Of a stretch of DNA of 63,304 nt, positions 1 through 63,298 are shown in pieces. The stretch is from the NCBI RefSeq assembly GCF_001661595.2, contig NZ_LYPF02000029.1:1-63304 (forward strand). The letters are read 5' to 3'. The translations under genes were made by a program, and so were the position numbers. The notes under the pieces are model-generated. The model did not search any database, was not told where the DNA came from, and was given only the letters and a program-made list of their open reading frames with translations. This stretch comes from Crocinitomix algicola. GTDB lineage: Bacteria > Bacteroidota > Bacteroidia > Flavobacteriales_D > Crocinitomicaceae. The first letter of the stretch is position 1. Each line of letters opens with the position of its first letter.

Positions 1-21
1 TGGTAAGATTGCGGACAACCC
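1..21 (-). repeat. Short interspersed motif, copy 1 (minus orientation)
   Basis: On the plus strand this reads TGGTAAGATTGCGGACAACC followed by C, the reverse complement of the motif that recurs through the window. It lies at the window edge, so a partner copy or RNA element may lie outside. Confidence 0.8.
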
Positions 22-85
22 TATAAATCACCATATGTCACGCAAAATAAATCTTGTCTTATTTACTCGATTATAATAATCTCCT

Positions 86-109
86 TAGAGTTTTATAAAA
101 TCAACTCTA
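86..109 (-). terminator. Weak hairpin after the sorting-domain gene
   Basis: Arms TAGAGTT and AACTCTA (10-nt loop) directly follow the stop codon of the minus-strand gene that ends at 110. There is no clear U-tract, so termination is uncertain. Confidence 0.35.
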
Positions 110-964
110 TTATTTGCGATAGACCACTTTCTTATTATAGACTCTATTCCCAACAAACAGCGCAATTATATACGTTCCATTAACTAAATCATGGGAAAGT
201 GACACCTCTTTATTGTAGCTCCCCTCTAACTCTTTCCCATAATCTTTTTGTAATATCAACCTTCCTGTCATATCCTGAATATTCAACACAATTTTATCTG
301 CTGAAGACAACACATAGTTTACATGAACAATATTTGCTTCTTCATTAATATAAGCGGATAAAGGAGAAGGTTTATCCCGTTCAAAAACACTCGCTTCTGC
401 ATCCGCGCTGATATCTTTGGAACCTAAAAATATTTCGTCCCCAGAACTTGCCCCATTATTATTCGCTTTATTTATTGCAAAATACGCCGTAACGGTGCCC
501 ATATCAATTTCTGGCGCAACCCATTGAAAAGACCAAGTTTCCATCCCAAGCGAAGCTGAGTGCCGAACATATTCCCGACCACCAAAAGCCGTTACACTGG
601 TATTTTCGCCGGCAATAAATTCTCCTGCTTTTTCATCATCCTCATTCAAAATTGTTAGTTCAAAACCATTTTTTGGTCCTTCAGGCGTTGTTATTGTAGC
701 ATTATAGGTTTGCCCTGGTATATAATTAGGTTCACCTTCAAAATTTAAAAAAGCTAATCCTTCTGCTGACATGGTTGACCCAGAATGGCAGGATGTACAA
801 TTTGATTCACCTGGCGCACCTGTTCTTCCTGCAGGAGGATTTGCAGAACTCTGCACAAGTTCAAAACCATCAACATGATATTTTTGAATGGAATTAGTTT
901 TAGATAAAAAGGAGTAAAATGCAATGGTTAAGCCCATTGCTGCAAATAAGTAGATTTTTTTCAT
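110..964 (-). CDS. Secreted CxxCH protein with choice-of-anchor-like region and T9SS sorting domain
   Basis: A 284-residue secreted protein. Residues 1-20 form a hydrophobic signal peptide. A C-T-S-C-H motif at residues 56-60 follows a G-A-P-G-E segment, which resembles the Bacteroidota 'choice-of-anchor V' family and may bind one c-type haem. The middle is beta-rich, like a Reelin-type fold. The last ~80 residues have the form of a type A T9SS C-terminal sorting domain, with a 'GRL' strand, an 'L.NGTYI' turn and a terminal 'K.VV.RK'. The protein is therefore expected to cross the outer membrane and be surface-anchored or released. It is last in a minus-strand run after a DUF5777 barrel and a dihaem cytochrome. 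Haem binding is inferred from the motif only. Confidence 0.75.
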   Translation of the reverse strand: MKKIYLFAAMGLTIAFYSFLSKTNSIQKYHVDGFELVQSSANPPAGRTGAPGESNCTSCHSGSTMSAEGLAFLNFEGEPNYIPGQTYNATITTPEGPKNGFELTILNEDDEKAGEFIAGENTSVTAFGGREYVRHSASLGMETWSFQWVAPEIDMGTVTAYFAINKANNNGASSGDEIFLGSKDISADAEASVFERDKPSPLSAYINEEANIVHVNYVLSSADKIVLNIQDMTGRLILQKDYGKELEGSYNKEVSLSHDLVNGTYIIALFVGNRVYNKKVVYRK

Positions 965-968
965 ATTC

Positions 969-993
969 AGCGTTTTATATATTATTTAACGCT
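969..993 (-). promoter_or_regulatory. Inverted repeat in the leader of the CxxCH gene
   Basis: AGCGTT and AACGCT arms flank a 13-nt AT-rich loop and end about 5 nt before the ATG at 964. The hairpin could mask the ribosome-binding region or be an operator. No function can be assigned. Confidence 0.3.
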
Positions 994-1046
994 CTACGAT
1001 TAAAAAGGTTTGGTAACACAATAAATCGTCATTGACAATCAATGCT

Positions 1047-1922
1047 TTACAATTTAAACTTTCGATTAATTGAAAAACCAAATCGCCATTGTCCATCTAA
1101 CCAATTAGAAGTGGTGTAGGGAATAAATAAATTTTCATTCAAAGCTCTTGCGTTTGAAAAATTTAAAATAAACGAATGACCACCTGTTAAAATCTCTAAT
1201 CCAAAACTCAATGGATCCTGGTAGACCTCATCTAACTGTGAAGGTCTATTAATTACGTAATTATATTCAGCTAGAAATCCAAATGTTTTAGTCACTCTCA
1301 ACCGACCACTTAAACCAGCAAAAAATAAACCATTAACATCAACAAAATCAACGAAATTACGGTGATTATATCCTCCATTCAACTGAACAGTAAATCGTTC
1401 TCCGAATTTTCTAGTCAATAATAATTGGTTGGTGAATGATAGCCGATGTATGAATGTTGGATAAGATAGAATTGAACTTTCATCATCAATTGCCTTTTTA
1501 TAGGGGAGCATGAGAGAGCTTACAAAAACTGCGGTTAAGGGACTCCCTTCATTAGCTTGCTGGACAATTCTATATTTAGCATAACCATCCACAACTCCAC
1601 TTATTAAACCAACCCCTTTGTTCCGACCGACACCTATGTCCAATTGTTCCAACAGCCCATACTCAAATGCTATTCTAACATCTGCCAAATCATCAAAACC
1701 ATAAAAATTTTCTAATCCACCTGAAGCACCCGCAATATCACCAAATTTATGTGCAATAATGACCTCTAGAGATCTGTACGGAATCATCTCAACGGAATGA
1801 TTCGACAAGACTCGTGTACCTGAAAAGTTCTCGGTGACAAAATCTCTATCCTGTCCAAAACCATTATTTCCTATAAACGATATGCCCCCTAAAAAAATAA
1901 AGAAGTAGATAATTAGTTTCAT
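1047..1922 (-). CDS. DUF5777 family outer-membrane beta-barrel protein
   Basis: A 291-residue protein with an N-terminal signal peptide (about residues 1-23, ending near 'NGFGQ'). It continues as alternating amphipathic strands ending in K-F-K-L, as in an outer-membrane barrel. The N-terminal segment 'NHSVEMIPYRSLEVIIAHKF', followed by 'FYGFDDLADVRIAFEYGL', is typical of the DUF5777 family. Its start overlaps the stop of the upstream cytochrome gene as ATGA (1919-1922), which suggests translational coupling. Family members often sit beside cytochrome-type or YceI-type genes, and their function is unknown. The context suggests an outer-membrane partner of the two CxxCH proteins around it. Confidence 0.75.
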   Translation of the reverse strand: MKLIIYFFIFLGGISFIGNNGFGQDRDFVTENFSGTRVLSNHSVEMIPYRSLEVIIAHKFGDIAGASGGLENFYGFDDLADVRIAFEYGLLEQLDIGVGRNKGVGLISGVVDGYAKYRIVQQANEGSPLTAVFVSSLMLPYKKAIDDESSILSYPTFIHRLSFTNQLLLTRKFGERFTVQLNGGYNHRNFVDFVDVNGLFFAGLSGRLRVTKTFGFLAEYNYVINRPSQLDEVYQDPLSFGLEILTGGHSFILNFSNARALNENLFIPYTTSNWLDGQWRFGFSINRKFKL

Positions 1923-2950
1923 TTTTTAATTCCCGTTTTTATGTAATAGAGCAAGTCTAGCATTTGCTCTTCACTTAATTTTTCAAAACTGTACATTGGC
2001 ATATATTGCTTTCGTCCACTCATTGCATAAGTCCCGTATCTTGTTATATGTGGAACCGCCAAATTATTATACTTATCTTTTTTACGGTGTAAATAATTAA
2101 GAGAAAGATTAGAATTGCTCAATGTAAAGTTTGTAATTCCCTTTTCTGCATCATGGCAATGCAAGCAACCTTTTGTGTAAACATATCTACCATTCTCATA
2201 GTTTGGAGTATAACCTGGAATTTCAGGAATTTTATTTGTCCCAAAATGCGCTCTATTTGCCTGATTATATTTACCTTTTAACTGTGCCAAGGCTTTATGT
2301 TTATCCGTATCTAAATGCTTTAAAAACTGTTTTAATTCAATTGCTGTAAAATTCAAATCTTCTATTTTCAATTGAATTGACTTATAATAATGTAAAACAG
2401 ACCTAATTTCCCAGCTCTCCATTGGTCTACCTTGAGAGCATTGGGTTGCACATAGTTGAATTGCGTTAACCAGAGAATCTCTGGCAGGATATACCAAATC
2501 TCCATATTTTTTCAAATAATCATCATTGTACCAAGTTGACTTATTGTACATACCATAAAAAGTAGAAGCTGGCAAATACGGAATATCATGCAATTTTCCA
2601 TATTTCAAAACAGCATCCGGCGATTCGTCCGACGGATCTTCGCTTTCCATGACTAAATTATGGCAATCAGTACAAACAAAATACTTCGAAATCCTTGTAT
2701 TGGAACCATCCAATAGAGCTCCATAACGTATCATCTCCTCTCCCATTCGCGCTGAATCTAAGTCTAATTTTTCAATGTAATGATTGGGATATTCGGAACC
2801 ACTCAACAATAACGCATCCTCAACGGTTTGGGGAAGACGAACATTATTCGATACTTGATAAGAACCAATGCGACCTTCTTCTTTTATAAAACTGAATCCG
2901 GTAACGAGGATCAAAAAAAATAAAGTAAATTGCAAAAAAATCTTCGACAT
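1919..2950 (-). CDS. Dihaem c-type cytochrome, SoxA-like
   Basis: Starting at the ATG at 2950, this encodes about 343 residues; a GTG six bases upstream would add two. The N-terminus is a signal peptide or anchor. There are two CxxCH haem motifs, C-T-D-C-H near residue 93 and C-L-H-C-H near residue 263. Between them is a 'CATQCSQGRPMESWE' segment resembling the second domain of SoxA-type cytochromes. The C-terminal 'MPMYSFEKLSEEQ' carries likely axial methionines. It should be periplasmic or lipid-face exposed and transfer electrons. No sox genes are visible here, so a thiosulfate-oxidation role cannot be claimed. It is first of three genes, overlaps the next by 4 nt, and is divergent from recG with only 48 bp between starts. 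Confidence 0.75.
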   Translation of the reverse strand: MSKIFLQFTLFFLILVTGFSFIKEEGRIGSYQVSNNVRLPQTVEDALLLSGSEYPNHYIEKLDLDSARMGEEMIRYGALLDGSNTRISKYFVCTDCHNLVMESEDPSDESPDAVLKYGKLHDIPYLPASTFYGMYNKSTWYNDDYLKKYGDLVYPARDSLVNAIQLCATQCSQGRPMESWEIRSVLHYYKSIQLKIEDLNFTAIELKQFLKHLDTDKHKALAQLKGKYNQANRAHFGTNKIPEIPGYTPNYENGRYVYTKGCLHCHDAEKGITNFTLSNSNLSLNYLHRKKDKYNNLAVPHITRYGTYAMSGRKQYMPMYSFEKLSEEQMLDLLYYIKTGIKK

Positions 2951-2998
2951 TGTCACGATAAATATTCTCTTAAATTAATTATTTTTTTCAATCTGAGA

Positions 2999-5098: not shown

Positions 5099-5134
5099 AC
5101 TACTCAGCCTAAAATTAAATAAAAAAGGAAGTTG

Positions 5135-5467: not shown

Positions 5468-5468
5468 G

Positions 5469-6089: not shown

Positions 6090-6093
6090 ATAA

Positions 6094-6969: not shown

Positions 6970-7114
6970 GCGTTAGGGATTGGCGCAATTGTTTAAGCTC
7001 TCCTCTTGTTTGCCGTCTGACACGGACAGACAAGAGGAAGCGAGTGCAGAAAGCCCGACCACCGCACCAATATGTTCTTCAAATTTCACTGAAGTTATAG
7101 CGGTGGGAACGCCC
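6970..7114 (+). ncRNA. Structured RNA element, copy A
   Basis: A 145-nt copy. It begins GCGTTAGGGATTGGCGCAAT and ends GGGAACGCCC, so GCGTT and AACGC can close the element. Hairpin 1 uses CCTCTTGT/ACAAGAGG. The conserved block AAGCGAGTGCAGAAAGCCCG follows. Hairpin 2 uses CCACCGC/GCGGTGG. The other four copies use different stem sequences in both hairpins but still pair. It may correspond to a catalogued Bacteroidota motif such as Flavo-1, which could not be checked here. Confidence 0.75.
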
Positions 7115-7157: not shown

Positions 7158-7178
7158 TGGTTGTCCGCAATTGTACCA
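7158..7178 (+). repeat. Short interspersed motif, copy 2
   Basis: GGTTGTCCGCAATTGTACCA preceded by T. It is 44 bp downstream of RNA element A and paired with the copy at 7286 (128 bp start to start). Confidence 0.85.
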
Positions 7179-7285: not shown

Positions 7286-7306
7286 TGGTTGTCCGTAATC
7301 GTACCA
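7286..7306 (+). repeat. Short interspersed motif, copy 3
   Basis: GGTTGTCCGTAATCGTACCA preceded by T; one substitution in the core. It lies 56 bp before the cdd start. Confidence 0.85.
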
Positions 7307-7841: not shown

Positions 7842-7842
7842 C

Positions 7843-11989: not shown

Positions 11990-12010
11990 TGATTGTCCGC
12001 AATCTTACCA
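11990..12010 (+). repeat. Short interspersed motif, copy 4
   Basis: GATTGTCCGCAATCTTACCA preceded by T. The next copy starts 79 bp downstream. Confidence 0.85.
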
Positions 12011-12068: not shown

Positions 12069-12089
12069 TGATTGTCCGCAATCGTACCA
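12069..12089 (+). repeat. Short interspersed motif, copy 5
   Basis: GATTGTCCGCAATCGTACCA preceded by T. The next clear copy is 154 bp downstream, about twice the 77-79 bp period. Confidence 0.85.
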
Positions 12090-12151: not shown

Positions 12152-12172
12152 TGGTTTTCACCAACTTGACCA
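12152..12172 (+). repeat. Possible degenerate short motif
   Basis: TGGTTTTCACCAACTTGACC followed by A keeps the TGGTT and ACCA ends and the 21-bp length but has lost the core. It sits midway between copies 5 and 6, where a 77-79 bp period predicts one. Confidence 0.35.
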
Positions 12173-12222: not shown

Positions 12223-12243
12223 CGGTTGTCCGCAATGATACCA
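12223..12243 (+). repeat. Short interspersed motif, copy 6
   Basis: GGTTGTCCGCAATGATACCA preceded by C. It lies 28 bp upstream of RNA element B. Confidence 0.85.
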
Positions 12244-12271
12244 CTAAACCATCAATGTGCATGTATAAGTC

Positions 12272-12414
12272 GCGTTAGGGATTGACGCAATTGTTTGAGC
12301 TCTCCGATTTTCCGCCCGACACAAACGGGAAGGAAAGAGGAAGCGAGTGCAAAAAGCCCGGCCCTGTCTACAATCAATATAAAAAACTGGAAAACGATGA
12401 ACAGGGCAACGCCC
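12272..12414 (+). ncRNA. Structured RNA element, copy B
   Basis: A 143-nt copy. It starts GCGTTAGGGATTGACGCAAT and ends GGGCAACGCCC. Hairpin 1 pairs TTTCC and CCCG with CGGG and GGAAA. The conserved AAGCGAGTGCAAAAAGCCCG block follows. Hairpin 2 pairs CCCTGT with ACAGGG. Both stems differ in sequence from copy A while pairing is kept. Confidence 0.75.
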
Positions 12415-13603: not shown

Positions 13604-13633
13604 TTGGTAAAATTGCGGACAACCATAAATTTG
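13604..13633 (+). promoter_or_regulatory. Predicted promoter of the SPFH gene, overlapping a short motif
   Basis: TTG at 13604-13606, a 19-bp spacer, then TAAATTTG at 13626-13633 fit TTG-N19-TAnnTTTG. The spacer is almost exactly the minus-oriented short motif. Confidence 0.55.
13605..13625 (-). repeat. Short interspersed motif, copy 7 (minus orientation)
   Basis: Plus strand TGGTAAAATTGCGGACAACC followed by A. It is not paired with another clear copy. Confidence 0.85.
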
Positions 13634-19004: not shown

Positions 19005-19895
19005 ATGCTTTTAAAAGAATTTTATAAAAAATATTGCGATGAACGCACATGTAAGCTTCATTACAAAAGATTGAGAGAACAAAACGGAATTTATTGCAAA
19101 AGATGTTCAGGAACTAAACATTATTGGCTTAAATCAAAAGAGCAGTGGCAATGCAAATCATGTAAATTTAGAACTACACTGCGGAGTGGAACTGTCATGG
19201 AAAGCAGTAATTTACCTTTTCATTTATGGTATCAAACATTCTACTTATTAACCACAACTAAAAAATCTATATCAACCTGTGAAATACAACGTAAATTAGG
19301 GTTAAAAAGGTATGAGCCAGCCTGGTATATGGTGCATAAAATCCGAAGAATAATGTCTAAAATTAATGAAATAGAACAATATTCTAGCGATCAACCTTAT
19401 GATGAGTTATATCTTACGCGTTTTAATCAACCGGAGAAATCAGGAGTCCAAAACAATCAATTTAGAAGGAAGAAGGGACATTATGGAATTTTAATGACGA
19501 GCTGTCTGAATGAAAGATCTAAAACCAACATTTTGGATAAAATTAGATTGTTAGCAGTAGATCAACCCAACGAATATTCCATAAAAAAGGTAAGTATTGG
19601 TAAAGTCTACCAAACAGAAAATTACCGAAATTTCAAAATTTTGAATCCATTAGAAAACAATATTAATTTTGGAACCTTCCCAAAGTCGCCGAGGAAGTCA
19701 CCTTGGATAAACACTATAATACGTAACTTCAAAATTATTTTAAGAGGAATTCACCACCATATATCACCCAAATTGAGTCAATTATATTATGATGAATATT
19801 GCTTTAAATATAATCATAGGCATACTTCCGAGCCTTTGAAAACTGTGATGCGATTTGGTGTACTAACATACTGGTACGATTGCGGACAACCATGA
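19005..19895 (+). CDS. IS1595-type transposase-derived protein, catalytic residues apparently lost
   Basis: 296 residues. The N-terminal zinc ribbon (C31/C34 and C50/C53) and helical DNA-binding region ('SSNLPFHLWYQTFYLLTTTK', 'STCEIQRKLGL', 'YEPAWYMVHKIRR') match IS1595/ISXO2 transposases. The C-terminal 'GIHHHISPKLSQLYYDEYCF' then 'KYNHRH' matches the end of their DDE domain. The expected catalytic acids are not visible: 'ELYLTRFNQP' replaces E-x-D-E-T-x-x-G, and no D or E sits at the second and third sites ('IGKVYQTENYRNF', 'KSPWINTIIRNFK'). The frame is intact over 891 bp. The last seven codons (W-Y-D-C-G-Q-P) are a copy of the short intergenic motif, which leads directly into the TGA. 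No flanking inverted repeats were seen. It is either a decaying relic or a domesticated DNA-binding protein. Confidence 0.7.
   Translation: MLLKEFYKKYCDERTCKLHYKRLREQNGIYCKRCSGTKHYWLKSKEQWQCKSCKFRTTLRSGTVMESSNLPFHLWYQTFYLLTTTKKSISTCEIQRKLGLKRYEPAWYMVHKIRRIMSKINEIEQYSSDQPYDELYLTRFNQPEKSGVQNNQFRRKKGHYGILMTSCLNERSKTNILDKIRLLAVDQPNEYSIKKVSIGKVYQTENYRNFKILNPLENNINFGTFPKSPRKSPWINTIIRNFKIILRGIHHHISPKLSQLYYDEYCFKYNHRHTSEPLKTVMRFGVLTYWYDCGQP
19872..19892 (-). repeat. Short interspersed motif, copy 8 (inside the transposase-derived CDS)
   Basis: Plus strand TGGTACGATTGCGGACAACC followed by A. It encodes the last seven residues of the CDS, and TGA follows at once. It is the only copy within a coding region. 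Confidence 0.9.
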
Positions 19896-19986: not shown

Positions 19987-20006
19987 TGGTATCAAATTTG
20001 CCACCA
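19987..20006 (-). repeat. Possible degenerate short motif
   Basis: TGGTATCAAATTTGCCACCA keeps the ends but not the core. It starts 115 bp after copy 8 in the same orientation, close to the 113-128 bp pair spacing seen elsewhere. Confidence 0.35.
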
Positions 20007-24636: not shown

Positions 24637-24657
24637 CGGTTGTCCGCAATCATACCA
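24637..24657 (+). repeat. Short interspersed motif, copy 9
   Basis: GGTTGTCCGCAATCATACCA preceded by C. Paired with copy 10, 113 bp downstream. Confidence 0.85.
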
Positions 24658-24749
24658 CCAACGATTATAAAACTATATATACATCACTAAGAGTGATAAA
24701 AAATTCACTATAAAGTATAAGCACCTGTACTTAAAGAACAAGGATTTTA

Positions 24750-24770
24750 TGGTTATCCGTTATATTACCA
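24750..24770 (+). repeat. Short interspersed motif, copy 10 (diverged)
   Basis: GGTTATCCGTTATATTACCA preceded by T. It is the most diverged of the clear copies and lies 32 bp upstream of RNA element C. Confidence 0.7.
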
Positions 24771-24802
24771 TTGACTTATTAGGTTTAAATCTTGTTTCTT
24801 GT

Positions 24803-24936
24803 GCGTTAGGGATTGGCGCGATTGTTTGAGCTCTCTGTTTGTCCGTCTCAGACGGCCGAATAGAAGCGAGTGCAGAAAGCCCGCCCCATAATTTTCTATC
24901 TGTTATTCAAGTTCGAAAAAATTATGGGGAACGCCC
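24803..24936 (+). ncRNA. Structured RNA element, copy C
   Basis: A 134-nt copy. It starts GCGTTAGGGATTGGCGCGAT and ends GGGGAACGCCC. Hairpin 1 pairs CCGTCT with AGACGG. The conserved AAGCGAGTGCAGAAAGCCCG block follows. Hairpin 2 pairs CCCCATAATTTT with AAAATTATGGGG. Confidence 0.78.
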
Positions 24937-25056
24937 TTAGTTTTCATAAATATTTAATCAGTAAGCATTTTTTACGACTTTAAACGGTCTGTATTCACCT
25001 TTTAAAATGGTTTAATTATTTAAAAATCAACCTTATTTATATCGCAAAGTTTGTTG

Positions 25057-25077
25057 TGGTATGATTGCGGACAACCA
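25057..25077 (-). repeat. Short interspersed motif, copy 11 (minus orientation)
   Basis: Plus strand TGGTATGATTGCGGACAACC followed by A. It lies 120 bp downstream of RNA element C. Confidence 0.88.
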
Positions 25078-28277: not shown

Positions 28278-29996
28278 TTATCGCACATTGAACACGAGTG
28301 GTGAAGCATTTTTTGTAACGCGAGACGGGTCTTTATATTTACAGGTTATGGTCACTCGTTTACCACAAGATTGTCTAAGAATTTGTAAGGCATCCTCATC
28401 TAAGCGCCCGCCATTTAAGACTTTTCCTTTCCTATACATCCCTTCAACTTCGACTTTTCCATCTATAATATCAAATACGACGCCTGCAATAGGTACCCCT
28501 GGATCGTATTTAAGAACAATTCTATTTTGAACACCAACACTAGAACACCCAGGACGTTGACCATTAGAAATTCCTCCTAAAAATATTTCCGGTCGTGGTA
28601 ATGGCCTTACATCAAAAGAATTAGTTGCGATTGTCACGATTGAACCATCTTTCTTTTCTCCTTTAACACTTATTGTAGCTTGACGAATCCCTGCGCCAAC
28701 CTTAACAAAGAACTTACCATTCCGCTTGATAATCTGACAACCACTACTAGCTGATATTGAGATTTTATCTTGAGAAAATCCTGATGCTGCCGCTTCAATT
28801 TCATTCTCATACCCACGATATAATAACCTAAGATTTGGTTGTGAAATCACTCCCATTGGCTGACCAACTGTATAATCAAAACTCCAAGGTTTCCATATAG
28901 TCTGATTACGTTCTTTTACACCAATTGCGCCTTTTACTCTATGAATTCCTGGAGCCGCCCCGGATAGATTAATTTTTCCACTTGCTGTTTGCCAGTTCTC
29001 TGGTAACGTATCTTCATCCATGCCCCATTTTAATGTATACACTTGATTAGAATCATAGGCTGCGATGAGCACTTTTAAGTCCATTGAATCACCCTGATTA
29101 ATATAACCACTTGGAGCAACGGCCATTGGTTCTATTTTATTGATTACATATATAGGCTCTTTTATCTTATTTAATAAATATTCAACCGCTAGTGCTTCTC
29201 CATTTTTAACATCAACTTTTAAACTGGTGAACATGGCTGCTGCCGCAACTAAAGGCGCATGGTTAAAAGTTGCTGACACCCAAGGCATTTCACGTTCTTC
29301 ACCCACATCATATAATTTATCTGGAATTGTTAAACTCCTATAAAAATGTGCAATTTTCGCAGTATCAATTGGGTTAGATGATTGAAGAGATTTAGATAGA
29401 TCAGTGTAGTTTTTAGGTGGATCAAATCTGTATTGTTTTCCGTTCTCACTGTAGTTAGCCATGATTGAGGCGATAGTGTCCCGGTAATTATGAATCTTAT
29501 CTCTAATCAAACGCCCCCTTTCTTTAGGGTTCAAAGGATCTGATCCTATAAATAGTTGAGTTGGGACATCATAATTGTCTTTTATCAGGATATCCTTTAA
29601 AGGCTTCAAGGTAACCTGATCATTGGACTTTTTTCCTTCAGGTCGTATAATCCAATCTTCCCCTTCTGCCGTTTTTATCATTTCATTGCACTCAGTCAGT
29701 AAGTAGTTAATGAGATTATTTGTTTTACTTTCAACAATCTTCGACTTATCCTGCCAAATTTGAAAGAATGAAATATCTCCCTTTTTCGCTTCAATTGACA
29801 TTCGTTTTAAGTCAAACGAAGAATAGTCCTCTTGAATCTTATTGTTGATAATAGTCGCGCTACCATCCAATTTATCGTTTATTGTCACAAATGCATTCAC
29901 CACTTCTTTGGTTACATTTAATGCTAGTAAAGCTGTTAAGACAAGGTACATCATTCCGATCATTTTTTGCCTTGAAGTTTCCTTTCCTCCTGCCAT
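28278..29996 (-). CDS. Second GldM-like T9SS motor protein
   Basis: 572 residues, similar along its whole length to the GldM at 32324-34048. It keeps the N-terminus 'MAGGKET.RQKMIGMMYLVL', including R9, known to matter for proton coupling, and the single membrane helix. The periplasmic part follows the same domain order, with matching blocks 'GYINQGDS', 'FDYTVGQPMGV', 'LYRGYENEIE' and 'LYLGGISNG'-type 'FLGGISNGQRPG'. It could form a second GldL-GldM motor or mixed motors, but no second gldL is present in this window. It is last in the gld region and separated from gldN2 by a terminator-like hairpin. Confidence 0.88.
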   Translation of the reverse strand: MAGGKETSRQKMIGMMYLVLTALLALNVTKEVVNAFVTINDKLDGSATIINNKIQEDYSSFDLKRMSIEAKKGDISFFQIWQDKSKIVESKTNNLINYLLTECNEMIKTAEGEDWIIRPEGKKSNDQVTLKPLKDILIKDNYDVPTQLFIGSDPLNPKERGRLIRDKIHNYRDTIASIMANYSENGKQYRFDPPKNYTDLSKSLQSSNPIDTAKIAHFYRSLTIPDKLYDVGEEREMPWVSATFNHAPLVAAAAMFTSLKVDVKNGEALAVEYLLNKIKEPIYVINKIEPMAVAPSGYINQGDSMDLKVLIAAYDSNQVYTLKWGMDEDTLPENWQTASGKINLSGAAPGIHRVKGAIGVKERNQTIWKPWSFDYTVGQPMGVISQPNLRLLYRGYENEIEAAASGFSQDKISISASSGCQIIKRNGKFFVKVGAGIRQATISVKGEKKDGSIVTIATNSFDVRPLPRPEIFLGGISNGQRPGCSSVGVQNRIVLKYDPGVPIAGVVFDIIDGKVEVEGMYRKGKVLNGGRLDEDALQILRQSCGKRVTITCKYKDPSRVTKNASPLVFNVR

Positions 29997-30071
29997 AATT
30001 TTTTGAGATTAATTAAGTCAACACTATTGTTGGTTCTTAATCAATCAATTCAGAATGTTGTGAATAGTAAC

Positions 30072-30100
30072 AAAAAAAGAGACACCTTTTCAGTATCTCT
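30072..30100 (-). terminator. Terminator between gldN2 and gldM2
   Basis: On the minus strand AGAGATAC pairs with GTGTCTCT (one G-U pair), followed by a run of U. Confidence 0.8.
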
Positions 30101-30124
30101 TTTAACAATAGCTTTATCGCATCT

Positions 30125-31120
30125 TTAATAAGCCCATAAATCGTGTTCAAATCTAGAAATTTCACTTTTAATTCGACCGGCCTCAATAAGGGCATCTACT
30201 CCCGCTTTATATTCGTCAACTTGCCTATTATAAATATTAGATTCCTTAATCGCGTAAGAATGAAACATCCGTTTCATGAACAGATCATCGAGAGACATCC
30301 GTTGTGCATCGTTCTTGCTATTCGCAACGAAATAATTTTGAAAAATGTACCTACATTGAGGAAAATACAACCAAAATAACTCCCTTGTACCCGTTATATT
30401 ACCATTTACATCTTTTTGATATACTACTGGTGCAATACCGATAATTCTTTTCTCCACCATTGACTTTTCTTTGTCGAAATACCAATCTTCCTTTAAAGTG
30501 TAGCTTATTATATCTTGAGAGTTAAACCAAGATGTGTCATTGGGCGGATAAATCACTTTCCATGAACCATCGTCTAATTGAATCATGCTATCAATTGTTG
30601 GGTCAAGCATCGAAGTAAGGGGAATAGCTTCTGGATCTACTATTTCATTACCTAAATATAGGAATATTGATTCTTTAAAACTTTCATCAGAATAAAAGGT
30701 ACCATCCGGAGTGGTAGGATATATTGGATATTTAAACGAATCACCATCTTTCCAACTTTCCCAATTAGGATTAAAAGGTGAATATAAAGTAAGATCTCCC
30801 GCTAAGACATGATGACGTATAATTGTCCAAAGACTCCAAATGCTTGTATACCTATTCCAACCAGCATAATCAACTTTATCTAATGGATAATACAGGGAGT
30901 GATTTATTTTTTGCCTTAAGTCTATCGAACTCCACATTCTTTTACTCCAAGTAACATCAGCTGCTCTAACATACTCATGTGGGATAACTTTTTTCGTTGG
31001 AATGTGTTCATCGATATAAACACCATCCAATACACCGTTATTAATGTAAATAGGGCCTCGCACGAATTGTGCTTCTGAAAGGAACGGCAAAAGCCCTAAG
31101 AATAGAATTAATTTTTTCAT
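30125..31120 (-). CDS. Second GldN-like protein (GldO type)
   Basis: 331 residues, similar throughout to the GldN at 31230-32234: 'RGPI', 'NNGVLDGVYI.EHIPTKKVI', 'ADVTWSKRMWS.IDLR', 'DLTLYSPFNPNWESWKDGD', 'FWLYFPQCRYIFQN' and the C-terminal 'FEHDLW.Y'. A signal peptide ends at 'SEAQ'. GldN forms a periplasmic ring with GldK under the outer membrane. In Flavobacterium johnsoniae a tandem gldN-gldO pair is known and partly redundant, which is the likely parallel. It has hairpins on both sides. Confidence 0.9.
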   Translation of the reverse strand: MKKLILFLGLLPFLSEAQFVRGPIYINNGVLDGVYIDEHIPTKKVIPHEYVRAADVTWSKRMWSSIDLRQKINHSLYYPLDKVDYAGWNRYTSIWSLWTIIRHHVLAGDLTLYSPFNPNWESWKDGDSFKYPIYPTTPDGTFYSDESFKESIFLYLGNEIVDPEAIPLTSMLDPTIDSMIQLDDGSWKVIYPPNDTSWFNSQDIISYTLKEDWYFDKEKSMVEKRIIGIAPVVYQKDVNGNITGTRELFWLYFPQCRYIFQNYFVANSKNDAQRMSLDDLFMKRMFHSYAIKESNIYNRQVDEYKAGVDALIEAGRIKSEISRFEHDLWAY

Positions 31121-31180
31121 GGTTTGAGGTTTTATTAATCATTGTTTATAAATAAAATACCAAACCATAGAATTGGTTAC

Positions 31181-31211
31181 AAAAAAAGGTCAACCGTTCT
31201 GGTTGACCTTT
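31181..31211 (-). terminator. Terminator between gldN and gldN2
   Basis: An 11-bp perfect stem, AAAGGTCAACC/GGTTGACCTTT, followed by a U-run on the minus strand. Confidence 0.88.
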
Positions 31212-31229
31212 ATATGATTTATAGTTTCT

Positions 31230-32234
31230 CTAATAACTCCAGAGATCGTGTTCGAAATTAAATATTTTCTCCTTTATTCTTTCTGACTCCAGTAGTGCAT
31301 CCACACCTGCTTTGTAGCTCTCCACATCTCTGTCGTACAAATTAGATTCTTTTACGACATAAGAATGGAACATTCGCTTCCAAAACAAATCATCAAATGA
31401 CATTCTTTGAGCATCGTTATTTCGACTTTGAACAAAGAAATTTTGGAATACATATCTACATTGTGGGAAATATAACCAGAAAAGCTCTCTGAAACCATCT
31501 ATATTACCGTTTCTATCTTTCCGATAAATTACTGGGGCAATACCAATTATTCTTCGATCGAGTACAGATCTTTCTTTATCAAAAAACCAATCTTCTTTGA
31601 TTCTGTACTGCACAATATCCTTAGAAGTAAACCATGAAGTATCGTTAGGAGGATAAACAGCTACATAATCACCTGTTGCAGGGTCAATGACAACACTATC
31701 TTCCTCTGGATACAACCAGCTTTTTAATGGTAAAGCTTCTGGATCAATATTTTCCGTACCGATGTAGATGAACATTTTTTCACGGAACTCCTTATCATTG
31801 AAATAATTTCCAGAAGGTGTTGTTGGTTCGATAGGATATTTAAACATATCACCATCCTTCCAGCTTTCCCAATCCGGATTAAAAGGTGAATACATTGTCA
31901 AATCACCTGACATCACATGATGTCTAATAATTGTCCATAAACTCCATCTTGTGGTATTCTTTTGCCACATACCCAATTGAAGCTCATCCATTGGGTAGTA
32001 AAGTGGGTGATTAAATTTTTCGCGTAAATCAATAACGCTCCAAACCCTTTTACTCCAAGTCACATCTGCCTCACGAACATACTCATAAGGAACAACTTTC
32101 TTGGTAGGGACGTGTTCTTTAATGTAAACTCCATCCAAAACACCTTTTGCAGGACTAGCAATTGGCCCTCTAATATCTTGAGCAAATCCAACCCCTACAC
32201 CTAACATCACTAAAGAAAAAAATAATCTTTTCAT
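31230..32234 (-). CDS. gldN: T9SS/gliding protein GldN
   Basis: 334 residues from the ATG at 32234; a GTG one codon upstream is the alternative. A signal peptide ends at 'GFAQ'. The mature protein shows GldN landmarks 'GVLDGVYIKEHVPTKKVVPY', 'WSKRVWSVIDLREKFNHPLY', 'SPFNPDWESWKDGD' and 'ELFWLYFPQCRYVFQNFF'. It binds GldK to form the periplasmic ring of the translocon. It follows gldM across an 89-bp gap with a hairpin. Confidence 0.95.
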   Translation of the reverse strand: MKRLFFSLVMLGVGVGFAQDIRGPIASPAKGVLDGVYIKEHVPTKKVVPYEYVREADVTWSKRVWSVIDLREKFNHPLYYPMDELQLGMWQKNTTRWSLWTIIRHHVMSGDLTMYSPFNPDWESWKDGDMFKYPIEPTTPSGNYFNDKEFREKMFIYIGTENIDPEALPLKSWLYPEEDSVVIDPATGDYVAVYPPNDTSWFTSKDIVQYRIKEDWFFDKERSVLDRRIIGIAPVIYRKDRNGNIDGFRELFWLYFPQCRYVFQNFFVQSRNNDAQRMSFDDLFWKRMFHSYVVKESNLYDRDVESYKAGVDALLESERIKEKIFNFEHDLWSY

Positions 32235-32269
32235 CACCTTACAGTTTATATTACACCATTATTTCCAAT

Positions 32270-32308
32270 AAAAACCGTGACTCAAAAATTAATCATTGCC
32301 ACGGTTTT
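32270..32308 (-). terminator. Hairpin between gldM and gldN
   Basis: AAAACCGTG pairs with CACGGTTTT around a 20-nt loop, with a U-run on the minus strand. It probably attenuates rather than fully stops transcription, as gldN has no clear promoter. Confidence 0.6.
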
Positions 32309-32323
32309 AATTTATACTTTTAT

Positions 32324-34048
32324 TTATCGTGTGGTAAATACTAATGAAGTACGTTTAGTTACATTATCTGGCCCTTTGTAATTTACCATAATTGTAACTT
32401 GCTTACCAGACGATTGAGCTAAAATTTGTTTAGCATTCGCATCTAGGTTACCACCTCTCGTAATTTTACCTTTTCTCATAATTCCGTCAACACTAACAGT
32501 ACCACTAACAATTGTAAAGGTTACCCCAGTTAACGGTACACTTTCATCGTATCGACAACTTAATCTACCTTGTGCTCTAACACTTGATAAACCTGGATTT
32601 GCACCATTACTAATTCCTCCTAAATATAGAGCCGGTGTAGGTAACGCTTTAACTTTAAATTTAAACGATCCTAAGTTTACCGAACCTCCATCATCTTTCT
32701 TACCATTTACGCTAATTGTCGCTTCTCTAACACCAGCACCAACTTTCGCGATATATTGGTTACCGCTTTTACTTATAGAACAACCGCTACCCGATAAGGT
32801 TACACGATCTGCAGGAAAACCTGAAGCTGTACCTTCGACTATATTGTTGTAACCACGGTAAAGAACACGCATTTCAGGTAAAGCTACAACACCCATTGGT
32901 TGTCCAACTGTATAGTCAAATTCCCACGGTTTAGGGACTTTAACACCACGTTGTTTTACATAAATTACACCTTTCACTTTGTGTAATCCAGGTTTCTCAC
33001 CAATTAAGCTAATAGAACCATCAGCATTTGTTGCTGGTTTCCAACCATCTTGATTTGACGTATCTGCATCTTGACCCCATTTCACATCAGGAGTTTCAGT
33101 TGAATCATAAGCCGCAATCATAACTCTTAAATTTAATGAGTCACCTTGGTTTATATAACCAGTGCTAGCAAATGCAAGTGGTTCAATTTTATTAAAATCA
33201 AATTCTTGAACATCAACTTTACTCAACAAAAATTCAGTTGCCATTGACTCAGAGTTCTTTACATCCAATTTAAGCGCTGTAAGCATCGCTGCTGCCGCAA
33301 CAATTGGTGCATGATCAAACATCACTGCTGGCCATTTGTGCGTTTCCTCTTCACCATGAATCTTTTGTGTGATTTCCTCTGGTAAATCTAATGAACGCAT
33401 GAAAGCTTTAATTTGAGCTGTATCCTGTGGATTAGCAGTCAATAAGGCTTCATCTAAATTAGCCAAATCTTCTGGCGCATCAAACGTATAATCTCCTTTT
33501 GGAGTTTTATATGTCGCCATAATTTTAGCCACTGCATTACGATATTCAATTACTTTTAATCGAATATCTAAACCTCTTTGCGCTGGTTTATCCGGGTTAC
33601 CACCTATAAATAGGTTTGTTGGAATGTCATAATTATCCATTCCCGTAATATCACTCAAAGGTTTTAATTTAGTTATATTTCCCTCTTCATCTTTTTCTTC
33701 TACCCAGTCCGCACCTTCAGAAATCTTAATCATTTCATTCGCTTCACCTAAAAGGTAACTTACTACTTCTGTAGTTAGCTTTTGAACTTCATAAGCTCTT
33801 TCTTGCCATACTTGTACTGTTTTAACATCACCACCCTGTGCTTTAACAGTTGTGATTTTTTTGTCAAAAGAAGAATAGTTCGATTGATTATTGTTATTAA
33901 TAATCTGTGCACTTCTATCTAATTTATCGTTGATCGTTACGAATGCAGCGATCACCTCTTTAGAAACGTTCAGTGCTAGAAGGGCAGTCAGTACGAGGTA
34001 CATCATACCGATCATCTTTTGTCTAGGGGTTTCTTTTCCTCCTGCCAT
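32324..34048 (-). CDS. gldM: T9SS/gliding motor protein GldM
   Basis: 574 residues. One N-terminal helix ('MMYLVLTALLALNVSKEV') is preceded by R9. A long periplasmic part of four domains ends near 'FTTR'. GldM dimers sit inside a GldL pentamer and are thought to turn proton flow into movement that powers T9SS export and gliding. It is 56 bp downstream of gldL. The near relative gldM2 is 2.3 kb downstream. Confidence 0.96.
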   Translation of the reverse strand: MAGGKETPRQKMIGMMYLVLTALLALNVSKEVIAAFVTINDKLDRSAQIINNNNQSNYSSFDKKITTVKAQGGDVKTVQVWQERAYEVQKLTTEVVSYLLGEANEMIKISEGADWVEEKDEEGNITKLKPLSDITGMDNYDIPTNLFIGGNPDKPAQRGLDIRLKVIEYRNAVAKIMATYKTPKGDYTFDAPEDLANLDEALLTANPQDTAQIKAFMRSLDLPEEITQKIHGEEETHKWPAVMFDHAPIVAAAAMLTALKLDVKNSESMATEFLLSKVDVQEFDFNKIEPLAFASTGYINQGDSLNLRVMIAAYDSTETPDVKWGQDADTSNQDGWKPATNADGSISLIGEKPGLHKVKGVIYVKQRGVKVPKPWEFDYTVGQPMGVVALPEMRVLYRGYNNIVEGTASGFPADRVTLSGSGCSISKSGNQYIAKVGAGVREATISVNGKKDDGGSVNLGSFKFKVKALPTPALYLGGISNGANPGLSSVRAQGRLSCRYDESVPLTGVTFTIVSGTVSVDGIMRKGKITRGGNLDANAKQILAQSSGKQVTIMVNYKGPDNVTKRTSLVFTTR

Positions 34049-48431: not shown

Positions 48432-48569
48432 GGGCGTTCCCATGTTTCCAGTAAGCTGTCAAAATATTGTATTGAAAACATGGTCAGGCTTTCCGCACTC
48501 GCTTCTGTCTGTCCGTCTGAGACGGACGAACAAACAGAGAGCTCAAACAATTACTTCAATCCTTAACGC
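48432..48569 (-). ncRNA. Structured RNA element, copy D (minus strand)
   Basis: A 138-nt copy on the minus strand. It starts GCGTTAAGGATTGAAGTAAT at 48569 and ends GGGAACGCCC at 48432. Hairpin 1 is built on CCGTC/GACGG. The conserved block reads AAGCGAGTGCGGAAAGCCTG. Hairpin 2 pairs CCATGTTTTC with GAAACATGG (one unpaired base). It lies between convergent groEL and the T9SS cargo gene, and no short motif is nearby. Confidence 0.78.
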
Positions 48570-56943: not shown

Positions 56944-56964
56944 TAGTTGTCCGTAATTGTACCA
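56944..56964 (+). repeat. Short interspersed motif, copy 12
   Basis: AGTTGTCCGTAATTGTACCA preceded by T. Paired with copy 13, 80 bp downstream. Confidence 0.82.
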
Positions 56965-57023: not shown

Positions 57024-57044
57024 TGGTTATCCGCAAAGATACCA
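57024..57044 (+). repeat. Short interspersed motif, copy 13
   Basis: GGTTATCCGCAAAGATACCA preceded by T. It lies 35 bp upstream of RNA element E. Confidence 0.82.
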
Positions 57045-57079
57045 CTATATGTAAAATGGTATTTTATTTTAAAATCTGC

Positions 57080-57200
57080 GCGTTAGGGATTGGAGCAATT
57101 GTTTGAGCTCTTTGTCCGTCCGTCTGAGACGGACGGAGGAACAAAAGCGAGTGTGTAAAGCCCGCCCCATTCGAAAAGCAATTTCGAATGGGGAACGCCC
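57080..57200 (+). ncRNA. Structured RNA element, copy E
   Basis: A 121-nt copy, the shortest. It starts GCGTTAGGGATTGGAGCAAT and ends GGGGAACGCCC. Hairpin 1 is a perfect 9-bp stem, CCGTCCGTC/GACGGACGG, with a 3-nt loop. The block AAGCGAGTGTGTAAAGCCCG follows. Hairpin 2 is a perfect 12-bp stem, CCCCATTCGAAA/TTTCGAATGGGG. Confidence 0.8.
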
Positions 57201-57372
57201 TACAAAACCCATCGAACGCATCAAAACTACCCTTACAGACTCACAAACAATCACTTACAAATATTTTTCTTTTTCTCTTCCTGTAAAACCCTTATTAAAT
57301 TTCCGAATTAATTTTCGGGATTTATAGGAGTGTGATAGTGATTTCTCTATCTTTATTAGAAAATAATTCGTT

Positions 57373-58452: not shown

Positions 58453-58453
58453 T

Positions 58454-59693: not shown

Positions 59694-62270
59694 ATGAAAA
59701 GTTCATTTTTGTTTTTGTTGATTTTCACATCTTTACCCACATCTTTTGCCTTTAAAACAAGCGACCTACAATCCATAAAAGGAAGAGAGCAGGAAGTTAC
59801 AATACTCGACCTATCTAATCAAGCCCTCATTTCAATTCCAGAAGAAGTTTTAATGTGCAAAAATCTTGTAGAATTAGACGTATCCATGAACGGCATAGTT
59901 GAACTACCCATAGGTTTGGCAAAGCAGAAGAATTTAAAAATTTTAAACTTATCTGACAATGTTGGAGTAAGTATAACTGATTTAGACCATTTATTTGAAG
60001 CAGCTACATTTCAACTCACTGAGTTGTATCTCAACAATTGTGAATTAGGTTTTTTACCCCAGAACATTGGTCGCCAAAAAAACATTACTCGACTAGATGT
60101 GCAAGGGAATAAATTAAATAATTTGCCCTATCCAATTGTTCAGCTGGTTAAACTGGAGTATGTTGATTTATCGAATAATTTGATAACGGATATCAGTTGG
60201 CAAGTGAATCAATGGTGGCACTTACGATCGTTGGATGTTTCCGAAAATCCCAAATTAAAAACGGATGAATTGATATTTAGTCTGTCTGTGAAAGATCAAA
60301 TGGATTTTTTAGCGCTTAGCCATTTAAAAACATTACCCGTCGAATTTAAGCACCTAAATATTCATCATCTTTCAATAAGCAGGTCCACCTTAAAAACATT
60401 TCCACGCGTAGAAACCTCCACTGTAATAGAAAAACTTAGTTTTAACTATTGTCAATTTGAACAACCCGAAAAAACCGCTGAAATAATAGACAAATATGTT
60501 CATCCCCGTTATTTAAACTTGGACCATTCGAATTATTCGACCTTAAAAGCATTTTCTCTTATTGATGTTGATTCCATCAGTATAAAAAACAATGCACTTA
60601 CTAATTTAGATCCATTATTGGAAAAAAAAGAGCTAAAATGGTTGGATTGTAGAGCGAATAAAATCTCGATTGAAAACATAAAAAAATTTTCAAGTATAAA
60701 ACCTAATGTAGCCTTACTTTATAATGAACCCATTGAGGAGAAAATCGGCATTAACCCTCCTTTACCTTCACTTGTTCCTCAACCAACAACGAAAACATTC
60801 TCTTCATTAGAAAGTAATTTGTTGAGTATTGGTAGCTCTTCCATCACTGTTCCAAAAGAAGCTTTTATTGATAAAGACGGAAAAATTTATCGAGGTGAGG
60901 TTAAAATTGAGTATACTGAATTTATGGAGCCCGTTTCGATTTTATTGTCTGGAATAACCATGACATCAGATTCGGCTCGTGAAAACCTGTTCTTTTCATC
61001 AGGAGGAATGATTAACCTTGAGGCGTATGATCAAACCGGCAACCCACTTAAACTAAACGAAGATAAAACCATCGAAGTTAACATGATGAGTCCTAGTGCA
61101 AATACCGCCATGAATTTATATCAATTAAATGAAAATGGCAATTGGGAATACAATAAAAAGGACCTTGTAAACGAACCGTTTAAAATTGATCTTTCTAAAA
61201 TAGACTCTGCAGCGAATGCAGCGTTTTTAAACTTCAACAGAACGAAAATTCAAGTTGTTTCTAACCGTATAATTCCACATGTTAAAGGTAACAGTGAACA
61301 CCGTTCGCTTGAACTCACCTTTTCACGATTAATTACATTACCGAAATTAAAGAGCATTCGAACAGAAAAGAGAAAAATAACCGTTCGTAAACCCGAATTT
61401 GCAAGCAAATTTCTTGCATCACAAAAATACATTATCGATGGGAATTCAGATAGTATACAGTTCTATAAAGATTGGATAAAAAGGGTAAGCAAAGGGTTGA
61501 AAAAAAAATACAATCACTATAAGATGCGTCCCATGTCTAAAAAATATTTTGATGGACTCAATGTTATTCAAAACTTAAACATTCAGCATTCGGAAAAACA
61601 CGATCGTTTATATTTAAATTTTTTATATGAAGATTCAATAGTAAACATTCCCGTTACTTTGGCAACAAAAGCGGATGACATTAAAAGGAGAATTAAAAGT
61701 TTTAAATCATTTTCCAAACGTTACCGGTTTTACCAAAAGAAGGACGAAGCATTAAAAAGAAAAAGGAATCGTAAACTAAAACGCATCATCAAGCAACAGG
61801 AAATTGAAATTAAAAAATTGGCTCGAAAACTTGAAGAGCAAAGACAAAAACTCATTTTTGAGAACAAGGAACTTTTAAACAGCTCTGTAAATCAAACCAG
61901 TGTCCAACGAATATTTTCAATTACCGGTCTTGGTATTTGGAATTGTGATGTTCGATCTAGAATGGAGAGACCAACTGTAATTGCCAATAATTTCATTGGA
62001 GATGATGGTGTAGAAATTGAGGGTAAACCTACACAAATTAGTGTGCTTGATTTTGACAAGAATGGCGTAATTACGTTTAATAATTCATCCGCCTTTTTTG
62101 ATGCAGCATCAAAAAAAGTTGCCATCATGGTTTTTTTTAAAAATGATATGATTGGCATTCACAAATCGTGGAGTGCGCATAAAACAAACCCTAAAAAAAT
62201 AACGCTTGAAACATTTAATTCTAAAGCGATAACTGGTGATCAACTTATGGCCATGATTTATACCGAATGA
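59694..62270 (+). CDS. Secreted leucine-rich-repeat protein with beta domain and coiled coil
   Basis: 858 residues. The signal peptide ends near 'SFAF'. Residues ~30-330 are leucine-rich repeats ('LDVSMNGIVELPIGLAKQKN', 'LYLNNCELGFLPQNIGRQKN', 'LDVQGNKLNNLPYPIVQLVK'). Residues ~370-480 form a beta domain ('ITVPKEAFIDKDGKIYRGEV', 'YTEFMEPVSILLSGITM') that occurs in other Bacteroidota surface proteins. A very basic helical stretch at ~680-730 ('KRKRNRKLKRIIKQQ') is a likely coiled coil. The C-terminal part is unassigned and has no clear T9SS sorting domain. It overlaps the next gene by 4 nt (ATGA). Confidence 0.8.
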   Translation: MKSSFLFLLIFTSLPTSFAFKTSDLQSIKGREQEVTILDLSNQALISIPEEVLMCKNLVELDVSMNGIVELPIGLAKQKNLKILNLSDNVGVSITDLDHLFEAATFQLTELYLNNCELGFLPQNIGRQKNITRLDVQGNKLNNLPYPIVQLVKLEYVDLSNNLITDISWQVNQWWHLRSLDVSENPKLKTDELIFSLSVKDQMDFLALSHLKTLPVEFKHLNIHHLSISRSTLKTFPRVETSTVIEKLSFNYCQFEQPEKTAEIIDKYVHPRYLNLDHSNYSTLKAFSLIDVDSISIKNNALTNLDPLLEKKELKWLDCRANKISIENIKKFSSIKPNVALLYNEPIEEKIGINPPLPSLVPQPTTKTFSSLESNLLSIGSSSITVPKEAFIDKDGKIYRGEVKIEYTEFMEPVSILLSGITMTSDSARENLFFSSGGMINLEAYDQTGNPLKLNEDKTIEVNMMSPSANTAMNLYQLNENGNWEYNKKDLVNEPFKIDLSKIDSAANAAFLNFNRTKIQVVSNRIIPHVKGNSEHRSLELTFSRLITLPKLKSIRTEKRKITVRKPEFASKFLASQKYIIDGNSDSIQFYKDWIKRVSKGLKKKYNHYKMRPMSKKYFDGLNVIQNLNIQHSEKHDRLYLNFLYEDSIVNIPVTLATKADDIKRRIKSFKSFSKRYRFYQKKDEALKRKRNRKLKRIIKQQEIEIKKLARKLEEQRQKLIFENKELLNSSVNQTSVQRIFSITGLGIWNCDVRSRMERPTVIANNFIGDDGVEIEGKPTQISVLDFDKNGVITFNNSSAFFDAASKKVAIMVFFKNDMIGIHKSWSAHKTNPKKITLETFNSKAITGDQLMAMIYTE

Positions 62271-63052
62271 AAATAAATTCGACCATACTAATTTTACTTT
62301 TTGCTTTTAATGCTCGAGGGCAGAATAAGGTGTTTTTTGACCAACTGGATCGAACGGAGCGAAATGAGATTGTTTCACGAGTTCCAAATCGTTCGAAATT
62401 GTCTATTGTTGATTTTGATAAGAAAAATTATGCGTCCATTATAGTACACCAAATAAATGCGTATCGAAAAAAACGTGGGAGAAAAATATTTGAACAAGAC
62501 AGTGTTTTCAACCAAGTATGCAATACTTCAGTGAAACATTTACCGCGAAGTTTTTTTAAAGACAAAAAGAAAAGAAAAAAGTTAATACGGTATGTAGAAC
62601 GATCAATTAAGTATTTGAAAGGCGACTATAGGGTGTTCAATGCAATTATCTTTCAAGTAAACCTAACGAACCTAAAAAAACATCAAAATTTCCATTATTT
62701 AAGCAAAGATCAAAGTACAGAATTAAAACTTTTCTTTGGAAAAAGAATGAAGTTAGAAGACCTCAAAAACCCAAAAAAGAAAAAGCCAGAACCTGTTAAA
62801 GCAATAACAGAATTAGACTTTACGAAAGCCGTTATTACCAAAATTCAAAGCCAGAATACTATTTACAATTTACTTGCAAAAAATTTTTCTCATATCGGAT
62901 TGTATGTAAAAGTTGATGAATATTCGCTGCATCGAAAAAAAATTCCAACAGCATTTGCTATGGTTATAATTGGAGGCAAGCAGACTCAAGAATACAGTGT
63001 CCCCAAAGTTGAACAGAAGCAAGATGAAGACCCAACGATTATTTTAAAATAA
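62267..63052 (+). CDS. Secreted protein with degenerate CAP-like fold
   Basis: 261 residues. The signal peptide ends at 'NARGQ'. 'IIVHQINAYRKKRGRKIFEQ' near residue 58 resembles the opening helix of CAP/SCP domains, and 'HIGLYVKVDEYSLHRKK...TAFAMVIIGGKQ' resembles their closing strands, but the catalytic-site His and Glu pattern is not clear. The middle is Lys-rich. It is translationally coupled to the leucine-rich-repeat gene, so the two proteins may act together outside the cytoplasm. Family assignment is tentative. Confidence 0.6.
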   Translation: MKINSTILILLFAFNARGQNKVFFDQLDRTERNEIVSRVPNRSKLSIVDFDKKNYASIIVHQINAYRKKRGRKIFEQDSVFNQVCNTSVKHLPRSFFKDKKKRKKLIRYVERSIKYLKGDYRVFNAIIFQVNLTNLKKHQNFHYLSKDQSTELKLFFGKRMKLEDLKNPKKKKPEPVKAITELDFTKAVITKIQSQNTIYNLLAKNFSHIGLYVKVDEYSLHRKKIPTAFAMVIIGGKQTQEYSVPKVEQKQDEDPTIILK

Positions 63053-63199
63053 TTTCAAATTAGTATTCATTTTAATGAGGATAAAGCAGGTTTAAAGATT
63101 GACAATTTTTTGAGTTAAATCGATCTTTCTATAGATTAGATTGACTTATAAGAGTGCTACATCAACCATATTAATAGAATGCGATAAATGTTTATTATA

Positions 63200-63220
63200 T
63201 GGTTGTCCGCAATCGTACCA
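63200..63220 (+). repeat. Short interspersed motif, copy 14
   Basis: GGTTGTCCGCAATCGTACCA preceded by T: the consensus form. Paired with copy 15, 78 bp downstream. Confidence 0.9.
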
Positions 63221-63277
63221 CAAGAATATTTTTAGTAATAATCTGATGAATTGTTCAACATGTCAAGTCCAATATTA

Positions 63278-63298
63278 TGGTTATCCGCAATCATACCA
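63278..63298 (+). repeat. Short interspersed motif, copy 15
   Basis: GGTTATCCGCAATCATACCA preceded by T. It lies at the window end. In three other islands a plus pair or triplet is followed by an RNA element within 28-35 bp. Confidence 0.88.

Follow-up and report, generated by a model that had tools for sequence, protein, structure and literature searches.

Intergenic repeats of Crocinitomix algicola as probable amplified ends of a decaying IS1595-like insertion sequence

Described systems and the present locus

Insertion sequences (ISs) of the IS1595 family, of which Merlin is the eukaryotic counterpart, are reported to duplicate 8 bp of target DNA, and the inverted repeats (IRs) of Merlin to start with GG and to be accompanied by target duplications of 8-9 bp (PMC8101967). 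The same source describes Merlin elements that contain internal tandem repeats, 52 and 163 bp in length; these elements are eukaryotic, and the available portion of the text does not call the repeats IR arrays. Solo-TIRs have been reported in prokaryotes, with an origin that is left unclear (PMC3004938). In Bacteroidota, the BrickBuilt MITE of Porphyromonas gingivalis is intergenic and associated with tandem repeats, which are 23 bp long and lie without spacers inside the element (PMC4596501). In the REP/RAYT system, a domesticated transposase, TnpA-REP, has its recognition sequence dispersed between genes; the protein is an HUH enzyme, and the REPs are palindromic (PMC8266576).

The window examined here, i.e. 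the whole analysed stretch of 63,304 nucleotides, is the entire contig C22 of the 3.72-Mb genome of Crocinitomix algicola (G000, in 44 contigs). Its repeated motif recalls IS1595 in that the related elements, which are ISs of about 1 kb with a single gene, encode a Zn ribbon and a DDE_Tnp_IS1595 domain, the IR tip is GG (G or A in relatives, GG not being the tip at every one of the 15 loci with both ends), and four relatives have target duplications of 8-10 bp. It differs from IS1595 in that the transposase of the window is without the second catalytic Asp and without a left IR, and in that the IRs form tandem solo arrays. MITEs and solo-TIRs are matched by non-coding IR carriers, a candidate one at 24638-25076 and others in the related genomes G099 (343-353 bp) and G143 (50-110 bp), whereas regular same-strand arrays of one IR, with spacers of 51-108 bp, and the tandem arrays of whole MITEs in G143 have a different layout. 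Unlike in BrickBuilt, the IR itself is repeated, with spacers; unlike in REP/RAYT, the protein is IS1595-like and the IRs are at most weakly palindromic. In its working the system resembles MITE/solo-IR biology, and its likeness to REP/RAYT is a formal one. Literature searches found no description of tandem IR arrays of IS1595 elements, and none of the three publications containing a piece of the motif appeared relevant by title. It is unusual for IS decay to leave tandem arrays of nothing but the IS end; multiplied IRs beside catalytically emptied transposases, seen in three genomes, offer an opportunity to test whether a DDE transposase can turn into a DNA-binding protein with a ready supply of sites.

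Motif copies and the resident transposase gene

A preliminary description, made from the letters of the window, had listed 15 copies of the motif, all but one intergenic, and two degenerate candidates. All 15 places proved right (Table 1): 13 copies match the motif, with its core AT-GGTTGTCCGCAATCGTACCA-CWAA, at no more than 3 mismatches, against 0.00 expected (none in 100 dinucleotide shuffles), and two are weaker (24751, 5 mismatches, and 57025, 4 mismatches). The spacings of 78, 79, 80, 113, 128 and 154 bp given there were also correct, and only the starts of the plus-strand copies were one base low, the base before the 20-mer having been counted. A position-weight scan, with a matrix built from these same window copies and those on contigs C29 and C42, gave the 14 full-length copies 22.6-47.5 bits (copy 1-20, cut by the contig end, was unscored); the next score was 8.6, and the best in the reversed-sequence control 9.7. 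The candidate at 12153 (12152 in the earlier count) draws weak support from its spacing, scoring -1.3 at rank 16, below that control; the candidate at 19987, with 10 mismatches, is not supported. The IR copies are 87% alike. Fourteen of the 15 are wholly intergenic in a window that is 10.2% intergenic (89.8% coding, by a list of 52 frames), with p=2e-13 if copies are independent and p=9e-7 when counted by clusters (7 of 8), and four occupied gaps lie between divergent frames. No Rfam family matched the window at gathering scores.

Table 1. Features of the window, with positions counted from its first letter.
Position	Strand	Feature	Basis
1-20	-	IR copy at contig start; assembly breaks there	motif match
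6970-7100, 12272-12400, 24803-24932, 48450-48569 (-), 57080-57200		second structured repeat	
7159-7178	+	IR copy, first of same-strand pair (128 bp)	motif match
7287-7306	+	IR copy, second of 7159 pair	motif match
11991-12010	+	IR copy, array of 3 (4 with degenerate 12153)	motif match, position-weight scan
12070-12089	+	IR copy, 11991 array	motif match
12153-12172	+	strongly decayed IR candidate at expected spacing, 11991 array	score -1.3, rank 16
12224-12243	+	IR copy, 11991 array	motif match
12244-12272, 24771-24803, 57045-57080, ends of C29 and C42		links from IR array to structured repeat	
13605-13624	-	solo IR copy	motif match
19005-19895	+	open frame of an IS1595-like transposase (296 aa) without the second catalytic Asp	
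19872-19891	-	right IR of transposase element, read as C-terminus WYDCGQP-stop	motif match
24638-25076	.	candidate non-autonomous element of 439 bp, bounded by outward-facing IRs identical at 20/20	motif matches
24638-24657	+	left IR of 439-bp candidate	motif match
24751-24770	+	degenerate IR copy, 113 bp past 24638	position-weight score 22.6
25057-25076	-	right IR of 439-bp candidate	motif match
56945-56964	+	IR copy, first of pair (80 bp)	motif match
57025-57044	+	IR copy, second of 56945 pair	4 mismatches; position-weight scan
63201-63220	+	IR copy, array running off contig end	motif match
63279-63298	+	IR copy	preceding spacer matches C42 end at 20/22 bases

The excess holds for the whole genome, where 17 copies at no more than 3 mismatches (13 on C22, two at an end of C29 and two at an end of C42) stand against 0 for the reversed pattern. 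Motif arrays occupy four contig ends in the assembly, and C29 and C42 probably abut C22. The orientation of the end copies, together with the match of the spacer piece before 63279 to a C42-end spacer piece (Table 1), suggests the order C29-C22-C42 reversed, with the assembly breaking inside arrays; if the contigs adjoin, all copies are confined to about 65 kb of 3.7 Mb. A Pfam scan of the 40 main window frames, from whose matches we assigned gene names, found recG, cytidine deaminase, parts of pyruvate dehydrogenase, dnaJ, grpE, lnt, gldM and gldN, a sprF-like gene, topoisomerase, a miaB-like gene and groEL, a content that looks like core chromosome. In 28278-34048, two GldM-like genes (28278-29996 and 32324-34048) enclose a GldN-like gene (30125-31120) and a frame at 31230-32237; this frame has short repeats in common with the GldN-like gene, so the gliding gene pair is likely duplicated.

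The right IR of the resident transposase gene is identical to the consensus motif and encodes the last residues of the protein. A left IR was looked for before 19005 and not found, while the right IR has the GG tip; the element is therefore not a complete IS. The Pfam scores of the protein lie under the curated cut-offs (24.5 of 27 and 20.9 of 25.4 bits), and among 14 aligned proteins the Zn ribbon is matched by all and the DDE domain (DDE_Tnp_IS1595) by 13, at E<=0.1. From the catalytic triad D-D-(E/N) the first D and the N are kept. The motif is very probably the terminal inverted repeat of an IS1595-like IS, which bears out the earlier suggestion of the ends of a small repeat element. The counter-possibility raised with it, that the copies are fragments of one known IS, also largely holds, with the reservation that we could not identify the element as any catalogued IS. 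The element of the window is an IS1595 derivative and, with the second catalytic Asp and the left end gone, is not filed as a functional member of the family. Having lost part of the catalytic core and the left end, the resident transposase probably no longer moves itself; its conserved N-terminal half suggests that it may still bind the arrays. A second transposase copy of the genome lies at C12:267187-268083, and a solo IR of the type of that copy at C12:302084-302103, 34 kb away.

The pair at 24638-25076 also encloses the extra internal IR at 24751, and has as target duplication only a shifted 7-bp AT-rich near-duplication, AATTTTT; it still looks like a MITE. For seven other plus-strand copies tested, no inverted mate better than 8 mismatches was seen within 1 kb.

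Related elements, core loss and arrays in other genomes

Homologues of the transposase occur in 44 of 240 genomes of the family at E<=1e-10. Besides the locus in the window, 26 transposase loci were examined, duplicates of one locus being counted once, and at 15 of them an inverted IR pair of the same plan as the motif flanks the gene. These pairs are identical over 20 bases in L117, L128 and L133, and imperfect in L116, L114, L113, L068, L139, L132, L134, L138, L115, L123, L124 and L125. The other 11 loci (L118-L122, L126, L129, L131, L135-L137) have no convincing pair, and at five of them (L119, L131, L135-L137) a contig end truncates the locus. With the IR set as here, target duplications stand two bases outside it and measure 8 bp in L117 and L125 and 10 bp in L128 and L116; L132 has one of 6 bp and L134 one of 7 bp, shifted. 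None was seen in L115, in L124 (core intact), or in L113, L114, L068, L139 and L133; L123 and L138 stand at contig edges.

Twenty-one proteins were aligned for their catalytic positions and for a tree. The positions D, D and N are all present in 11 proteins, and 10 are core-degenerate: that of the window, the second copy of the same genome on C12, those of G016 and G027, five copies of G015 and one of G143. They lack one or more of the three residues, in most cases the second D; in L135 a D is aligned at that second position, and not at the first. All ten read as open frames, those of L135 and of the intact L119 running up to the end of a contig. A frameshift behind the missing catalytic Asp was rejected, as alignments to intact proteins stay in one frame, those of G143 being confined to the N-terminal part plus a short stretch near the C-terminus. 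At matched N-terminal identity of 0.40-0.60, core identity is 0.34 for intact pairs (sd 0.09; range 0.25-0.61; n=35), against 0.12 for intact-degenerate pairs (range 0.03-0.23; n=103) and 0.12 for degenerate pairs (range 0.04-0.28; n=37); judging from this difference, the predicted DNA-binding half is kept while the core has drifted. In the tree, which has 185 columns and several low supports, a clade of the window protein with those of C12, G016 and G027 (support 0.93) is separate from the G015 group, and this placement suggests that the core was lost more than once.

The degenerate pattern TGGTANNRTNGCGNACAACC, allowing no more than 1 mismatch, has matches in 19 of the 240 family genomes, and more than three only in the window genome (16) and in G015 (23), which is Crocinitomicaceae bacterium McLGI.31 of the same family. 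The other 17 genomes, with 1-3 matches, are treated as mostly noise, since the reversed-pattern control gives the same in many. None of eight same-genus genomes has the pattern at this threshold; G001 has one match at 3 mismatches, and eight left-end matches on eight contigs. A scan of a named genome collection, which may omit the window's own genome, returned nine stretches. Four are from McLGI.31 (15 exact matches); the remaining five have one match each, a number not far from the ~7.5 that chance would give by our own arithmetic from the information of the pattern. Viral contigs gave three single matches.

Tandem IRs are found in two other genomes, with units of 84-134 bp and in some cases directly at a transposase gene. 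The arrays of G015, with units of 84-124 bp, lie on four contigs, all between or beyond frames: on C108 between converging frames, on C175 and C125 between same-strand frames, and on C189 beyond the 3' end of a frame. Mean spacer identity within the array is 0.80-0.81 on C108 and C189, against 0.52 when shuffled, and 0.54-0.59, near the shuffled level, on C175 and C125; the best C175-C189 spacer pair is 79% identical. The two IRs of the C175 transposase match the array pattern with 1 and 2 mismatches, so that the IRs follow the local element, and on C39 three left IRs stand in a row directly before another transposase. In G143, of the same genus as G015, there are 34 matches to its own version of the IR (reversed control 3), a transposase on C246 that carries two IRs at its left end and two at its right, several MITEs of 50-110 bp, and two arrays in each of which about five MITE-like units follow one another in tandem. 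G099 has a dispersed MITE family of 343-353 bp, present in seven of ten stretches fetched; one more measures 110 bp and two are mateless, so that an inverted mate is found in eight, and no array was seen in the ten. Solo IRs in G061 were rejected, as an alignment of seven copies revealed a longer MITE-like family of ~350 bp with two truncated members. In G016 and G027 the IR pair of the local element is present, and the remaining matches, 1 and 4 weak ones, do not exceed the 5 and 8 given by the reversed control; the rule that a degenerate transposase implies arrays fails on these two genomes.

Origin of the arrays and competing explanations

We consider it highly likely that the copies in the window are the amplified ends of a decaying IS1595-like element, a variant of MITE/solo-IR biology. 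The resident element would have seeded the region with copies of its end and decayed thereafter. Most copies stand singly or in same-strand tandem, where ~80 bp is a frequent distance, and the tandems would have grown by local duplication, possibly through slippage or unequal recombination. IS ends are binding sites of the transposase. The transposase of the window would accordingly be expected to bind the IRs, and the arrays would mark its former or potential binding sites; the earlier proposal of protein-binding sites stands to this extent, while nothing points to a host regulator. That units are tandem duplicates is shown for two arrays of G015, with spacers 80% identical. For the window genome we infer such duplication of IR-plus-spacer units; the low similarity among its spacers, most of which are by now close to background (4 of 36 pairs at z>=3, the best at 4.6) while the IRs remain alike, counts against it, as do the two G015 arrays near the shuffled level. 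Conserved IRs with background spacers could reflect either selection on the ends or separate insertions of ends at similar distances. That all copies crowd into one region is unusual for transposition and counts against the preferred explanation, as do the left IR not found for the element of the window, its sub-cut-off Pfam scores, the relatives in which no target duplication was seen, and the array-less genomes G016 and G027. Neither the tandem-array form nor the loss of the transposase core had been foreseen in the preliminary description.

A core-degenerate transposase might instead have been domesticated as a putative DNA-binding protein that uses the tandem IR arrays as regulatory or chromosome-organising sites. 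The open frames of the ten degenerate proteins, their alignment to intact ones in a single frame (partial in G143), the drop in core identity at matched N-terminal identity, the well-kept IRs between near-background spacers, and the position of all copies around the transposase gene are in keeping with this; we nevertheless think it improbable, in view of the absence of the pattern, at no more than 1 mismatch, from eight same-genus genomes (with the single divergent match in G001), the array-less genomes G016 and G027 with their degenerate proteins, and the arrays of G015, of which one in four lies between converging and two in four between same-strand frames, so not generally at divergent promoters. 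A related and equally doubtful proposition is an undescribed class of transposase-derived systems, IS1595-like, with the core lost, the predicted DNA-binding half under selection, and tandem arrays of their own former IR between genes. If true, a partnership like that of REP/RAYT would have evolved independently from a DDE transposase, and the arrays would serve to regulate genes or organise the chromosome locally, or would be selfish and kept up by the protein.

That the motif is an operator, bound by an ordinary regulator of the neighbouring genes, is very improbable. The copies are intergenic, four occupied gaps separate divergent frames, and just after 25057-25076 stands TATATTTG, which we take to be promoter-like from the promoter consensus; but the adjoining genes are unrelated housekeeping genes, IS ends share the sequence plan of the motif, one G015 array lies between converging frames, and the absence of the pattern, at no more than 1 mismatch, from all eight same-genus genomes led us to reject operators conserved in the genus. 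Sites of site-specific recombination or cassettes, integron-like or dif-like, that would delimit gene blocks in the 63-kb region are still harder to credit: copies do stand at gene borders in both orientations, but the genome has just four tyrosine-recombinase matches, which lie on C4, C7 and C9, and none on C22, the gene content resembles core chromosome, and the sequences homologous to the motif form the ends of ISs, in part accompanied by target duplications. An integron attC array was rejected, there being no phage-integrase match on C22. A CRISPR array does not fit spacers that are ~80% alike in two of the four G015 arrays, and the scan of 40 window proteins gave a single match with a Cas name, to a sub-cut-off helicase domain of RecG. 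A link to RAYT was likewise rejected: Y1_Tnp matches occur in 13 of 18 genomes, both among those that have the motif and among those that do not, the two in this genome lie on C19 and C20, away from the motif, and no REP-like GTAG-hairpin was seen by eye in the IR.

A second, unrelated structured repeat of ~110-170 bp, with the plan GCGTTAGGGATTG...GAAGCGAGTGC...AAAGCCCG...GGAACGCCC and two variable hairpins by eye, is also present in the window (Table 1), where it has no Rfam match. Its 13-bp start has 16 exact occurrences genome-wide and 30 at no more than 1 mismatch, against 7 in the reversed control. At the starts of C9, C10, C14 and C20 (L039, L042, L044, L045) it follows what is presumably the 3' end of 5S rRNA; Rfam gave no 5S match on these short starts. 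In five places an IR array is followed, 28-49 bp further downstream, by the structured repeat in matching orientation. The link at 12244 and that on C29 have the same ending (ATAAGTCGCG), and IR arrays and structured repeat may have been copied together.
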